From: Gemmatimonadota bacterium
GTDB lineage: Bacteria > Gemmatimonadota > Gemmatimonadetes > Longimicrobiales > Gaopeijiaceae
Length of the DNA: 40,295 nt
Reading direction: 5' to 3'
Assembly: GCA_022826005.1 (NCBI GenBank)
Contig: JAJDVT010000080.1
Location: forward strand, 1-40,295
Position 1 is the stretch's first letter. Every line of letters begins with the position of its first letter. The notes below the pieces were generated by a model that saw only the letters and a list, made by a program, of their open reading frames with translations, was not told where the DNA came from and made no database searches. The position numbers and the translations under genes were made by a program. Shown here one piece after another: positions 2,614 to 19,668 of this stretch.

Positions 2614-3852
2614 CTACCCTTCCACCCGCTCCAACGGCCAGACCTGGATGTACTCCACGTCCATTTCATCCCTCACGCGGCCCAGGATGTAGTCCTCGCC
2701 GATCTCGTAGATCAGCAGCCCCTCAGGGGTCTCGACGAAACCCAGCACCTCTCCGTCAGGATCGAAGACGCACCAGATCACGCCGGGCACCTCCTCACCC
2801 GGCGGCTCGAATTCCTCGACCCAGAGGTGGTCCAGCGCATCGGCCATCATGGATGCGAAGGCCGGAAGGTGGTCGCTGACCGGAACGGGAGCGAATCGCT
2901 CGCGTTCCCTCGCCCGGGTCTCCGGGTCCGCGATTCCGGAGACCCGCGCCTCAACATATCCATCGACATGCGTGCCGGTGGGGGTACGCATCACATGGTC
3001 GCGGCGGACAATCCGGGCCAGAGTGCCGTCCTGCGCGAACGCGCTGATCTCGTAACGAGTATTCGGGGTGACGATGCTCAACTCGCCCCAGGCTTCCCGA
3101 ATCAGCTGCCGCCCGAAGATTACGTTGTAGATGGTCAGGTTCTCTACATCGAAATGCCTTTCCATGCCCGCGTGCGTACCTAGAAAACTCTTGAGTCCCC
3201 CCAACCTGTCCCTTAGTTCGACCACCACGGTATCGGCAGCCATGCGGGCAAATCCCGGAGTGGGGCTCGTCAGAATCGACCCGTCGCGCAGCACGGCCAC
3301 AGGACGCAACGCGTCTCCCCTCAGTTCAGTCTGCTCCTGCACGGGAAACCTGCGCGCTACTTCCCCGGCCGGATCGACGACGCTCACGATCGGAGACCGC
3401 GAGTCCCACACCACGGTGGTGTCGCCGGGAAGACGAGCGATGTTCCCAATGGGGCCTCGGAACTCGTTCGGGCCCTCGCCTTCTCCCCCCCAGGTGTCCA
3501 GATGAGTCCCGGCTTCATCGAAGACCCTCAACTCGGACGCCCTCGCGTTCACCACGACGATTCGCCCATCGGACAACCTGGTGGCACCCGTCACACCGTA
3601 GAGCAGGTAAGTATCTTCACCCTCCCGCCTTCCGACCGTGACGGCCGCCTCGGGGCCGATTCGCCAACCCAGCCGCGATCCATCCGCCGGACGGGGATTC
3701 TCCACGATCAGCACATCGGTGCGGTCCTGCATCCGGGTGTCGGGCGCATCGGGCATGTCGGATGCACTGGATGAACCGACATCCTCGCAAGCGAGCAGGT
3801 GGGGGACGGCGAGAGCAATCATCGCAAGCGGCAGGATCGGTAAGGAATCCAT
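2614..3852 (-). CDS. Six-bladed beta-propeller lipoprotein, function unknown
   Basis: The 412-residue product begins with a short hydrophobic signal sequence ending in a lipobox-like LLAC, so it is probably a lipoprotein. The body has repeated strand motifs typical of six-bladed propeller (NHL/BF3342-like) proteins: VTGATRLSDGRIVVVN, LRVFDEAGTHLDTWGG followed by GEGPNEF, then IVSVVDPAGEVARRF and VFDPDGEVLGFVETPEG. The GxGPxEF turn is a hallmark of such propellers. The ATG at 3852 is preferred to a TTG at 3864 because it gives a compact signal peptide. It lies 285 bp upstream of nupC on the same strand, but nothing shows co-transcription. No function can be assigned. Confidence 0.7.
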   Translation of the reverse strand: MDSLPILPLAMIALAVPHLLACEDVGSSSASDMPDAPDTRMQDRTDVLIVENPRPADGSRLGWRIGPEAAVTVGRREGEDTYLLYGVTGATRLSDGRIVVVNARASELRVFDEAGTHLDTWGGEGEGPNEFRGPIGNIARLPGDTTVVWDSRSPIVSVVDPAGEVARRFPVQEQTELRGDALRPVAVLRDGSILTSPTPGFARMAADTVVVELRDRLGGLKSFLGTHAGMERHFDVENLTIYNVIFGRQLIREAWGELSIVTPNTRYEISAFAQDGTLARIVRRDHVMRTPTGTHVDGYVEARVSGIADPETRARERERFAPVPVSDHLPAFASMMADALDHLWVEEFEPPGEEVPGVIWCVFDPDGEVLGFVETPEGLLIYEIGEDYILGRVRDEMDVEYIQVWPLERVEG

Positions 3853-4340
3853 AGCGTTGTCCAACGTAAGTCAGGTCAGATGAAACGGCGCACCTGCACG
3901 GCGCACCCGCTGCGGTCGACACTACGATTCCTCGTACCCGACATTTCGCGCAAGGGGCGTCCAATCCGGCAGGAGAGGCGTAGGGTGAAGGAACGGTCAC
4001 CGATTCCAACATGCGGCGAGGGGTACCGTTGATGGCCCTGATGCGTGCCGCGCTGGCCTGCTTCTGTGCCGCTTTGCCCCTCCCGGCCTCAGCGCAACTG
4101 GAGCGGTGGACGCTCGAGCGCACCGTCACGATTGGCGATGCGTTCGACCCGGAGACGGGACTTACTCGGGTGGGAAGCGTGATTGTCCGGGGCGTCGGCA
4201 GACGAGTTGGTCGAATCTCCACCGAAGCCGGAGGCTGTGTTCCTGTTCGGTCCTCCGCGTCGTACGTGCCGGAGCGGACGGCTCGACGTGGCTGCTCCTC
4301 CGCACGGGCTGTAGCCGCGCGGGCAACCAGCACCGAAACC
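3853..4340. other. Divergent intergenic region with remnant coding sequence
   Basis: The space between the propeller lipoprotein and the dnaK control region. It holds the 5' fragment of a second propeller-like gene (listed separately). No RNA gene is visible. The lipoprotein promoter should lie in 3853-4000, but no good -35/-10 pair stood out. Confidence 0.4.
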
Positions 4341-4460
4341 CTGCCAAATTGGCAGTCCGCACCGCCCGCACCCCGGAAACCTGCCAAAATGGCAGACCTC
4401 GGGGGTCCGCGCCGCCAAAACCCTGCCAAAATGGCAGACCCGAACCTGCCAAAACGGCAG
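4341..4460. promoter_or_regulatory. Array of four 15-bp palindromes upstream of dnaK
   Basis: Four near-identical sites occur at 4341-4355, 4381-4395, 4423-4437 and 4446-4460: CTGCCAAATTGGCAG, CTGCCAAAATGGCAG twice, and CTGCCAAAACGGCAG. Each has the same dyad arms CTGCC/GGCAG (the last keeps CTGCC and GGCAG but changes the centre) and each is preceded by an AACC run. Start-to-start spacings are 40, 42 and 23 bp, close to whole helical turns. This is the pattern of a multi-site operator or enhancer for a dimeric regulator. It does not match CIRCE (TTAGCACTC-N9-GAGTGCTAA) or the HspR box. With the -24/-12 element downstream, the sites fall roughly 60-170 bp upstream of the predicted start, the usual place for sigma-54 activator sites. 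Confidence 0.7.
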
Positions 4461-4489
4461 CCCGGTCCCGGTCGGCACCCCCCGCACCC

Positions 4490-4505
4490 CGGCACGCCCC
4501 TTGCC
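4490..4505 (+). promoter_or_regulatory. Candidate sigma-54 (-24/-12) promoter of dnaK
   Basis: The sequence CGGCACGCCCCTTGCC matches the sigma-54 consensus TGGCACG-N4-TTGC at all but the first T. The key GG (4491-4492) and GC (4503-4504) doublets are exactly 12 bp apart, predicting a start near 4516. An alternative is a heat-shock-type promoter using CCCCTTG (4498-4503) as -35 with TACCTT (4520-4525) as -10, but that spacer is only 13-16 bp and the -10 match is poor. No other sigma-70 pair was seen before the dnaK start. Confidence 0.5.
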
Positions 4506-4622
4506 GTAGACTGAACGGTTACCTTCAAGACACACCTTCGGCGAACCGGCGGCCCCATGCGGGCCGGCTCGGACCAGCCACTCAACCCCGCCGGCGGGGA
4601 GCCGGCACCGAAAGGAACTCAA

Positions 4623-6554
<1,932 letters not shown>

Positions 6555-17949: not shown

Positions 17950-19668
17950 TCAGTCCCCTGCTCCGCCGGGGCTCTCCTCTTCGAGGCCGTAGCGCTTCAC
18001 CTTGCGGTAGAGGGTCCGCTCCCCGATGCCGAGCAGCTCCGCGGCCTGGCGGCGGTTCCAGTCGACCGTGTCGAGGACGGTGCGGATGACCTCCCGTTCC
18101 ACGTCGTCCAGGGTCATGCCGGGCCTGTACGCGATGGGGGTCGGGGACTCTGCGGCGGCGGAGTCCTCGGCGGCGGCGGAGTCCTCGGCAGCGGCGAAAT
18201 CAACGGTGGCGGCGGGAGCCTCGGCGGACTGCGAGGTCCGGCCCCCGGCGGGCTCGGGGACGCCCGCTGGAACCGCAGCGGGATCCCCGGCAAGACCCTC
18301 GGCGGTGACGGAGGTCCGGGGCTGCTGCACGATTTCGCCGGCCGGACGGGGAACGACCCGGACGCCGCCGGTCTGTTCCTCGGACTGGAAGGCCTCGAAC
18401 TCCCGCTTCAAGTCTTCGATGTCCACCTTCATCTCCATCATCGTGCGGAAGATGAACTCGAGTTGAGGTCGGAGCGCCTGTACACTGTCGCCGCCGCCAC
18501 GCGCGGGGGCCGTCCCGGCCGGCACGAGAGCGCGCGAACGTTCGCCGGAACGGACGTCCTCGGGGATGTCCTCCGCGCGGATCTCGCGGCCGGGGGCCAG
18601 GACCACCATGCTCTCGATCAGATTGCGCAGTTCGCGCACGTTCCCCGGCCACCGGTGGCGCAGCAGGATCTCCATGGCGTCGGCCGAGATGCCGCGGAAG
18701 GGACCCCGGTCGTGCCGCTCGGCGGCCTCGCGCACGAAGGCGTCGACCAGGCGCGGGATATCGTCGCGCCTGTCGCGCAGCGGCGGCAGCGCGATGGTCA
18801 GGATGTTCAGGCGGTAGTAGAGGTCCTTGCGGAAGTCCCCGGTGAGGACGAGCTGGTCGAGCCGCTGATTCGTCGCGGCGAGGATACGCACATTCACCTG
18901 GATGAGCTTCTGTCCGCCCACCCGGTGGAATTCCTGCTGTTCGAGGATTCGGAGGAGCTTGGTCTGGGTCTGGGGGGGCATCTCGCCGATCTCGTCCAGG
19001 AAGATGGTGCCTCCGTTGGCGAGTTCGAAGAGCCCCTTGCGCGTGTCTATCGCCCCGGTGAAGGAACCCTTCTCGTGCCCGAAGAGTTCGCTTTCGAGGA
19101 GTGTCTCGGAGAGCGCCGCCACGTTGACGGGGATGAAGACGCGGTGCCGGCGGCGCGACAGCGCGTGGATCCCCCGGGCGACCAGTTCCTTGCCCGTCCC
19201 CGATTCTCCGGTGATAAGCACGGTGGCGTCGACCGGAGCGATCTGCACGATGCGCTCCAGCACTTCCACCATCGCGTCGGTCTCGCCCACGATCCCGGTT
19301 TCGCGGCGCAGCCGCCGCCGCTCGATCGCGCGCCTGCCCACGAGGACGATCTCTTCCGGGTCGGCGGGCGCGGGGAAGGTCGTGGTCACCCCGGGCGGGA
19401 CGGGTCCCGAGTCGTCGCGGCCGATCACCGCGAATACCGGCAGTCCGAGCGCGGCCGCCTCGCCGGTCTGGCGCACCGCGGCCTCGGTGCCGACGCCTCC
19501 GGTCAGGACGAGCAGGACAGGATCCTCACTTCCCGCGGGGTCCTCGCCGGAGGTGAAGAGGTCGACGCGGTAGCCGGCGTGCCGGAAGCCTTCCCTCAGC
19601 TCCCCGGCCAGCGGCAGGTTGTGCGTTGTTACGAGAACGGTCTCGCCGGTACGTGAAGTTCTGGCCAC
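17950..19668 (-). CDS. Sigma-54 activator (NtrC-like) with degenerate receiver domain
   Basis: Transcription activator expected to bind upstream sites through a Fis-type helix-turn-helix and use ATP to open sigma-54 promoters. In the 572-residue product, residues about 10-115 look like a receiver fold but lack its acidic pair (TTHN where DD is usual) and the phosphoacceptor Asp (LVLTGG). The AAA+ core has Walker A GESGTGKE (about 154-161), the sigma-54 contact loop GSFTGA (201-206, a GAFTGA variant) and Walker B TIFLDE (221-226). The C-terminal HTH ends RRQAAELLGIGERTLYRKVK. An Ala/Glu/Asp tandem repeat precedes the HTH (DNA about 18150-18200). The GTG start at 19668 lies 10 bp after the gcvT stop, so it is the last gene of that operon. 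Phosphorylation-independent control is inferred. Confidence 0.88.
   Translation of the reverse strand: MARTSRTGETVLVTTHNLPLAGELREGFRHAGYRVDLFTSGEDPAGSEDPVLLVLTGGVGTEAAVRQTGEAAALGLPVFAVIGRDDSGPVPPGVTTTFPAPADPEEIVLVGRRAIERRRLRRETGIVGETDAMVEVLERIVQIAPVDATVLITGESGTGKELVARGIHALSRRRHRVFIPVNVAALSETLLESELFGHEKGSFTGAIDTRKGLFELANGGTIFLDEIGEMPPQTQTKLLRILEQQEFHRVGGQKLIQVNVRILAATNQRLDQLVLTGDFRKDLYYRLNILTIALPPLRDRRDDIPRLVDAFVREAAERHDRGPFRGISADAMEILLRHRWPGNVRELRNLIESMVVLAPGREIRAEDIPEDVRSGERSRALVPAGTAPARGGGDSVQALRPQLEFIFRTMMEMKVDIEDLKREFEAFQSEEQTGGVRVVPRPAGEIVQQPRTSVTAEGLAGDPAAVPAGVPEPAGGRTSQSAEAPAATVDFAAAEDSAAAEDSAAAESPTPIAYRPGMTLDDVEREVIRTVLDTVDWNRRQAAELLGIGERTLYRKVKRYGLEEESPGGAGD

Follow-up and report, generated by a model that had tools for sequence, protein, structure and literature searches.

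What controls dnaK in a bacterium of the phylum Gemmatimonadota is the question raised by the stretch of 40,295 nucleotides analysed here, which we refer to as the window. Heat-shock control of this gene is usually explained by σ32, HrcA or HspR. The original prediction for this DNA instead read the region upstream of dnaK as an array of palindromes with a σ54-type promoter and proposed that the lineage may run Hsp70 expression through a σ54 activator. Comparative genomics supports this proposal and widens it to the phylum: the Gemmatimonadota seem to possess a heat-shock switch of their own, in which dnaK would be turned on by σ54 together with a palindrome-binding activator.

The dnaK control region

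The four 15-bp palindromes that had been predicted lie exactly where they had been placed, and their distances to the start are reproduced if transcription is taken to begin at 4516 (Table 1). They form a series of repeated dyad-symmetric sites between –168 and –63, as in an upstream activating sequence. With up to two mismatches allowed, the window contains no other match; 0.11 would be expected by chance, and none of 100 shuffles gave four. The position of the fourth palindrome is kept in two other loci (L032 and L033). The predicted –24/–12 element was likewise confirmed: its GG (4491–4492) and GC (4503–4504) are 12 bp apart, start to start, inside a match to the consensus YTGGCACGN4TTGCW. 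A block, GTTAYCTTY, is conserved at 4518–4530 and in the genus orthologs, 13 bp after the TTGC and near +3 relative to the predicted start.

Table 1. Features of the dnaK control region and the candidate activator gene in the window.
Feature	Sequence	Position	Strand	Basis and remarks
Palindrome 1	CTGCCAAATTGGCAG	4341..4355		Putative activator site; centre 4348, about –168; motif scan, helical spacing across the genus
Palindrome 2	CTGCCAAAATGGCAG	4381..4395		Centre 4388, about –128; motif scan
Palindrome 3	CTGCCAAAATGGCAG	4423..4437		Centre 4430, about –86; motif scan
Palindrome 4	CTGCCAAAACGGCAG	4446..4460		One mismatch; centre 4453, about –63; motif scan
σ54 –24/–12 element	CGGCACGCCCCTTGCC	4490..4505	+	Sequence; conserved at dnaK in genus and phylum
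Predicted transcription start		4516..4516	+	Predicted from –12 at C4504
dnaK (Hsp70), 643 aa		4623..6554	+	PF00012, E = 1.2e-269
Candidate activator, enhancer-binding protein		17950..19668	–	Domain matches, orthologs, ERTLYR helix

In the whole genome to which the window belongs, CTGCCANNNTGGCAG occurs 21 times, compared with two occurrences of the reversed control pattern. Most of these occurrences form clusters, found upstream of dnaK, of clpB and an OPT transporter gene, and of a second lon gene; three further places are at contig edges, two of them adjoining recombinase repeats. The same genome encodes σ54 itself (rpoN; PF00309 at G000:C110). The window is also dense in proteostasis genes between 4623 and 23910, namely dnaK, a trypsin-PDZ protease, trigger factor, clpP, clpX, lon, the candidate activator and hslUV.

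Searches for other heat-shock controls gave no candidate at dnaK. No CIRCE was found at its promoter, the HAIR inverted repeat had no match in the window at up to three mismatches, and a scan for σ70 promoters at dnaK returned none. Nothing above the TIGR02392 cut-off for σ32 (RpoH) was present in 40 genomes, and positions 3500–5000 contain no Rfam thermometer or other RNA element at gathering scores.

Conservation and helical phasing of the palindromes

To follow these elements through the phylum, we used three samples: the upstream regions of 22 dnaK genes of the genus, 21 of them with enough upstream sequence to test for both element and palindrome; 15 usable regions upstream of dnaK from the order's other genera; and 27 more from three further families (f4–f6), drawn evenly across the rest of the phylum. 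Nearly all dnaK upstream regions of the genus contain one to four palindromes followed by YGGCACGCNNNTTGCY, and the element of the other genera resembles TGGCATATGCGTTGCA. The pattern GG-N8-TTGC is found at dnaK in 21/21 regions of the genus, 14/15 of the other genera and 27/27 from other orders and classes. Together with a palindrome, which in the rest of the phylum stands directly upstream of the element, it occurs in 20/21, 14/15 and 25/27 regions, against 0.07, 0.09 and 0.14 in shuffles. The remaining, independent positions of the element match the σ54 consensus GGCAYG in most lineages. A σ54 score of 11–12 out of 12 was reached in 21/22 regions of the genus, with a chance of 0.3% per region in dinucleotide shuffles, and a score of at least 11 in 12/15 regions of the other genera (0.3–0.5% of shuffled regions). 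Both the palindromes and the –24/–12 element are thus kept at dnaK in close relatives, as expected from the original prediction. Because related genomes are not independent, these probabilities overstate the certainty; the pattern nonetheless holds in separate families. We also searched 20 genomes of three other families, in 40 stretches of up to 20 kb around dnaK, for the complete unit of palindrome and GG-N8-TTGC at fixed spacing. This gave 16 matches, one per genome, every one of them at the position of the dnaK promoter.

The distance between the palindrome core and the GG is 22–24 bp in most of f4 and f5 and 43, 53, 64 or 75 bp elsewhere, the latter values corresponding to 22 bp plus whole helical turns. 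Across 59 dnaK promoters, which come from related genomes and are not independent, this distance is phased at 10.5 bp (R = 0.82). The spacing between palindromes is phased at 10.5 bp as well (R = 0.65 for 185 pairs across the genus), with peaks at 21, 31 and 42 bp. Such phasing is expected of protein-binding sites that have to share one face of the helix, and not of chance palindromes. In several families the sole palindrome is centred near –41, nearer than a typical enhancer. In a study of a σ54 regulome, promoters within 100 nt of the closest activator site made up the largest fraction, and a few such sites were located 40–70 bp downstream (PMC4641369); the short distances seen here are therefore not disqualifying.

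In several genomes, the palindromes at dnaK, hsp20, clpB and elsewhere are directly preceded by the end of a conserved sequence, of which there are two kinds. One belongs to tyrosine-integrase elements, whose conserved end, about 70–95 bp past the integrase stop codon, abuts CTGCCA-N3-TGGCAG at the promoters of dnaK, hsp20, clpB and transporter genes (L035, L094, L062, L052, L015/L199, L204, L004, L008); the element in L199 carries MobC/NikA and a type I restriction R subunit as well. The other end (CGCAGATCGCGCAGCCCTGATTGAACTTACGTGATTCCCTGC...) was seen in L006, L037, L043, L063, L080 and L202, twice at dnaK, and in L202 a relaxase and MobC are encoded upstream of it. The heat-shock operators seem to serve as attachment sites for these elements.

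These observations bear on two other readings of the palindromes. Because a single palindrome falls near –41, we considered whether the palindromes could be operators of a repressor, or sites of a class II activator at –41.5, on a σ70 promoter whose extended –10 would consist of TTGC and the next six bases. At the 22-bp spacing a single palindrome does take the class II position, and f4 and f5 often show TTGCNNTAG. The –10 hexamer, however, is conserved neither in the genus, nor in the rest of the order, nor in f6, the conserved GG, which precedes TTGC by eight bases and mostly has CAYG after it, would be left without a role, and the array sites extend to –168 at a promoter for which the σ70 scan found nothing. 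On the conserved GG and the absence of a conserved –10 we dropped this reading as highly improbable. That integrase elements terminate beside the palindromes of dnaK, hsp20, clpB and further loci in several genomes could also mean that the palindromes serve mainly as attachment sites for tyrosine-recombinase elements, their location at heat-shock promoters reflecting an insertion preference. Yet the dnaK palindrome is found throughout the phylum in helical register with the promoter, even in genomes in which no element was seen there, and a purely mobile origin, to which we give hardly any credence, was dropped on this phased conservation. Since the register with the dnaK promoter is kept across the phylum, we regard the operator as a conserved target of the elements rather than as derived from them.

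Probable further targets of the operator

In the genus and in other Gemmatimonadota, the palindromes recur at dnaK, at hsp20, at the second lon gene, which lies beside a gamma-glutamyltransferase-like gene, and in the divergent region between clpB and the OPT transporter gene, and this sharing points to a proteostasis regulon. The original prediction had named groESL, clpB and hsp20 as places where the dnaK palindromes might recur together with a –24/–12 element. Palindromes are indeed present at hsp20 and clpB, but groESL lacks them and has a CIRCE instead, located 102 bp before groES and the only one in this genome; one CIRCE each was found in 38 of 40 genomes, all 40 of which encode HrcA. 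As to the promoter element, hsp20 has a good –24/–12 sequence, as does dnaK, and in 11/11 loci listed for the genus a TGGCAYG-type element lies 23–24 bp from the last palindrome. At clpB, on the other hand, the palindromes lie 38 bp before the start codon with no standard –24/–12 element in between, and only a conserved TGGCCCGGATCTTTCATG was found, upstream of the palindromes. The lon element, TGGCAAGGATCNTGCA, is weaker, with a poor –12, and lies about 69 bp from the palindrome and out of phase. We consider it likely, though not proven, that clpB and lon belong to the regulon.

Some neighboring arrangements deserve mention. The genes for ClpB and the OPT oligopeptide transporter diverge around the palindromes in L010 (2440–2690), L089, L093 and L097, which suggests that the transporter is co-regulated. 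A gene for a 592-amino acid DASS-family anion transporter repeatedly adjoins palindrome arrays (L007, L099, L102), once sharing its array with hsp20. Four contigs titled Gammaproteobacteria (L140, L144, L152, L178) carry clpB-OPT loci that have the same palindromes and are 68–73% identical to those of Gemmatimonadota, and their record names may be wrong. In two Planctomycetota contigs (L159, L210), groEL is preceded by a good σ54 element and by two CTGCCA-N3-TGGCAG palindromes with a spacing of 43 or 40 bp, suggesting that the operator is older or was transferred.

The candidate activator and the proposed switch

The protein encoded at 17950–19668 is one of five in its genome with a strong σ54 interaction domain. 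By its domains it is an enhancer-binding protein of the NtrC family, with an AAA+ σ54 interaction domain (PF00158, E = 2.7e-69) that contains a GSFTGA loop of the GAFTGA type, and a Fis-type helix-turn-helix (PF02954, E = 5.9e-15) with the recognition helix ERTLYR. The N-terminal 115 residues are receiver-like and lack the phospho-acceptor Asp at the aligned position. Response_reg did not match this protein and gave only a weak hit below the cut-off in one ortholog (E = 0.0047); the phosphorylatable receiver of an NtrC-type response regulator is thus not found here. A single-sequence structure model of the N-terminus, with a mean pLDDT of 45, was too poor to use. Since no phosphorylation site can be recognised in the protein, it probably does not receive its signal by classical two-component phosphorylation.

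Of 28 genomes from the order, 27 have an ortholog that matches from the N-terminus, and the assembly of the only exception (G014) lacks dnaK as well. The activator gene lies within about 12 kb of dnaK on one contig in at least nine genomes of three families (the genome of the window, G001, G009, G013, G017, G022, G024, G027 and G034); the distance is 58 kb in G021, and the gene is on a separate large contig in G025. In f4–f6, no ortholog was found within about 20 kb of dnaK, and none in the 1.23 Mb (about 42%) scanned of one f4 genome. Where the C-terminus of the ortholog is intact, ERTLYRK does not vary, and the whole recognition helix, GIGERTLYRK, is nearly invariant. A scan of 84,980 genomes identified three unrelated activator genes that directly adjoin paired CTGCCA-N3-TGGCAG sites: one in an uncultured bacterium (L185), with the site pair before dnaK, and those for PAS-like σ54 activators in Aquabacterium (L172) and Gallionella (L181), with the pair between the activator gene and a cydA-like gene. 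All three proteins contain ERTLYR, which is absent from six other activators compared. Helices of the ERTLYR type are not rare in Fis-type domains, and we therefore take the shared helix as support, not proof, for the assignment. On these grounds the 17950–19668 protein is most likely the palindrome-binding activator and the best candidate for it.

The σ54 promoter and the palindromes could also be real and be served by another enhancer-binding protein, such as an NtrX-like response regulator (C113 in the genome of the window). A protein of this kind is present in this genome (L130), and it is the sole activator found in the 42% scanned of the f4 genome, which has the dnaK palindrome; the window activator was not found in that part. 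Its recognition helix, PRSNLYKK, nevertheless differs from the ERTLYR of both the window activator and the three palindrome-adjoining activators, and the window activator is located near dnaK in three families, which makes the NtrX-like protein a rather unlikely choice.

Taken together, we consider it quite probable that the palindromes are bound by a σ54 activator, likely the 17950–19668 protein, that CGGCACGCCCCTTGCC drives dnaK, and that this control is shared with hsp20, lon and probably clpB. What the sequences show are the elements themselves, conserved at dnaK throughout the phylum, the phasing, the common targets and the conserved activator gene. From these we infer that dnaK depends on σ54, that this protein binds the palindromes, and that heat or misfolded protein induces the system, heat induction being assumed from the target genes. 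The activator would bind the palindromes, its enhancer sites, as a phased array on one face of the DNA, and its AAA+ ATPase would open the complex of σ54 RNA polymerase at the dnaK promoter. In its own lineage the same operator would drive hsp20, the second lon and probably clpB, with groESL left to HrcA/CIRCE. A more far-reaching reading, which we offer tentatively and only as a whole, would be a phylum-wide σ54 heat-shock response of dnaK that in one lineage also takes in hsp20, lon and clpB, with a one-component activator sensing proteotoxic stress directly through its degenerate receiver-like domain, and with an operator that is common with some Planctomycetota groEL promoters and doubles as an insertion site of mobilizable elements. 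If σ54 control is true, a whole phylum would drive dnaK from an ATP-dependent promoter, a different solution to the same problem that would allow tight off-states and activator-gated bursts. The named operator and activator provide a clear prediction for cultured Gemmatimonadota.

σ54 is best known from nitrogen control and motility, and HsfA is an activator of the NtrC family. HrcA/CIRCE, σ32 and HspR/HAIR control the same chaperone genes under heat shock, but dnaK has neither CIRCE nor HAIR here, and no σ32 exceeded the cut-off. In Myxococcus xanthus, the two-component regulator HsfA/HsfB activates the heat-shock gene lonD (Ueki and Inouye 2002, as cited in PMC9548883). Judged by this secondary account, the two systems would have in common a heat-shock lon under an activator, lon being a likely target here too. 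As described, they differ in that the targets in our case are dnaK and hsp20, with a defined palindrome array, and that the candidate activator has neither a recognisable phosphorylation site nor an adjacent kinase. For Planctomycetota and Bacteroidota, an enrichment of σ54 promoters has been predicted at chaperone genes, with the families dnaK, groEL, hsp20, clp and lon among them (PMC12316311). That study does not mention Gemmatimonadota, in which groESL is under CIRCE and for which we propose an operator and an activator. The hrcA-grpE-dnaK operon of Chlamydia has tandem σ66 and σ54 promoters, the σ66 promoter being under HrcA, and rpoN expression falls upon heat shock (PMC8762339). As far as this account of the operon goes, it shares with our case a σ54 promoter upstream of dnaK, but describes no palindrome array and includes the additional HrcA-controlled σ66 promoter. 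Our literature search found no paper on σ54 heat-shock control in Gemmatimonadota, and a full-text search with the operator halves and σ54 returned nothing relevant. σ54 control of chaperones is thus known or predicted elsewhere, piecemeal, whereas the putative Gemmatimonadota regulon, with its phylum-wide dnaK case, its operator and its activator, appears to be new.
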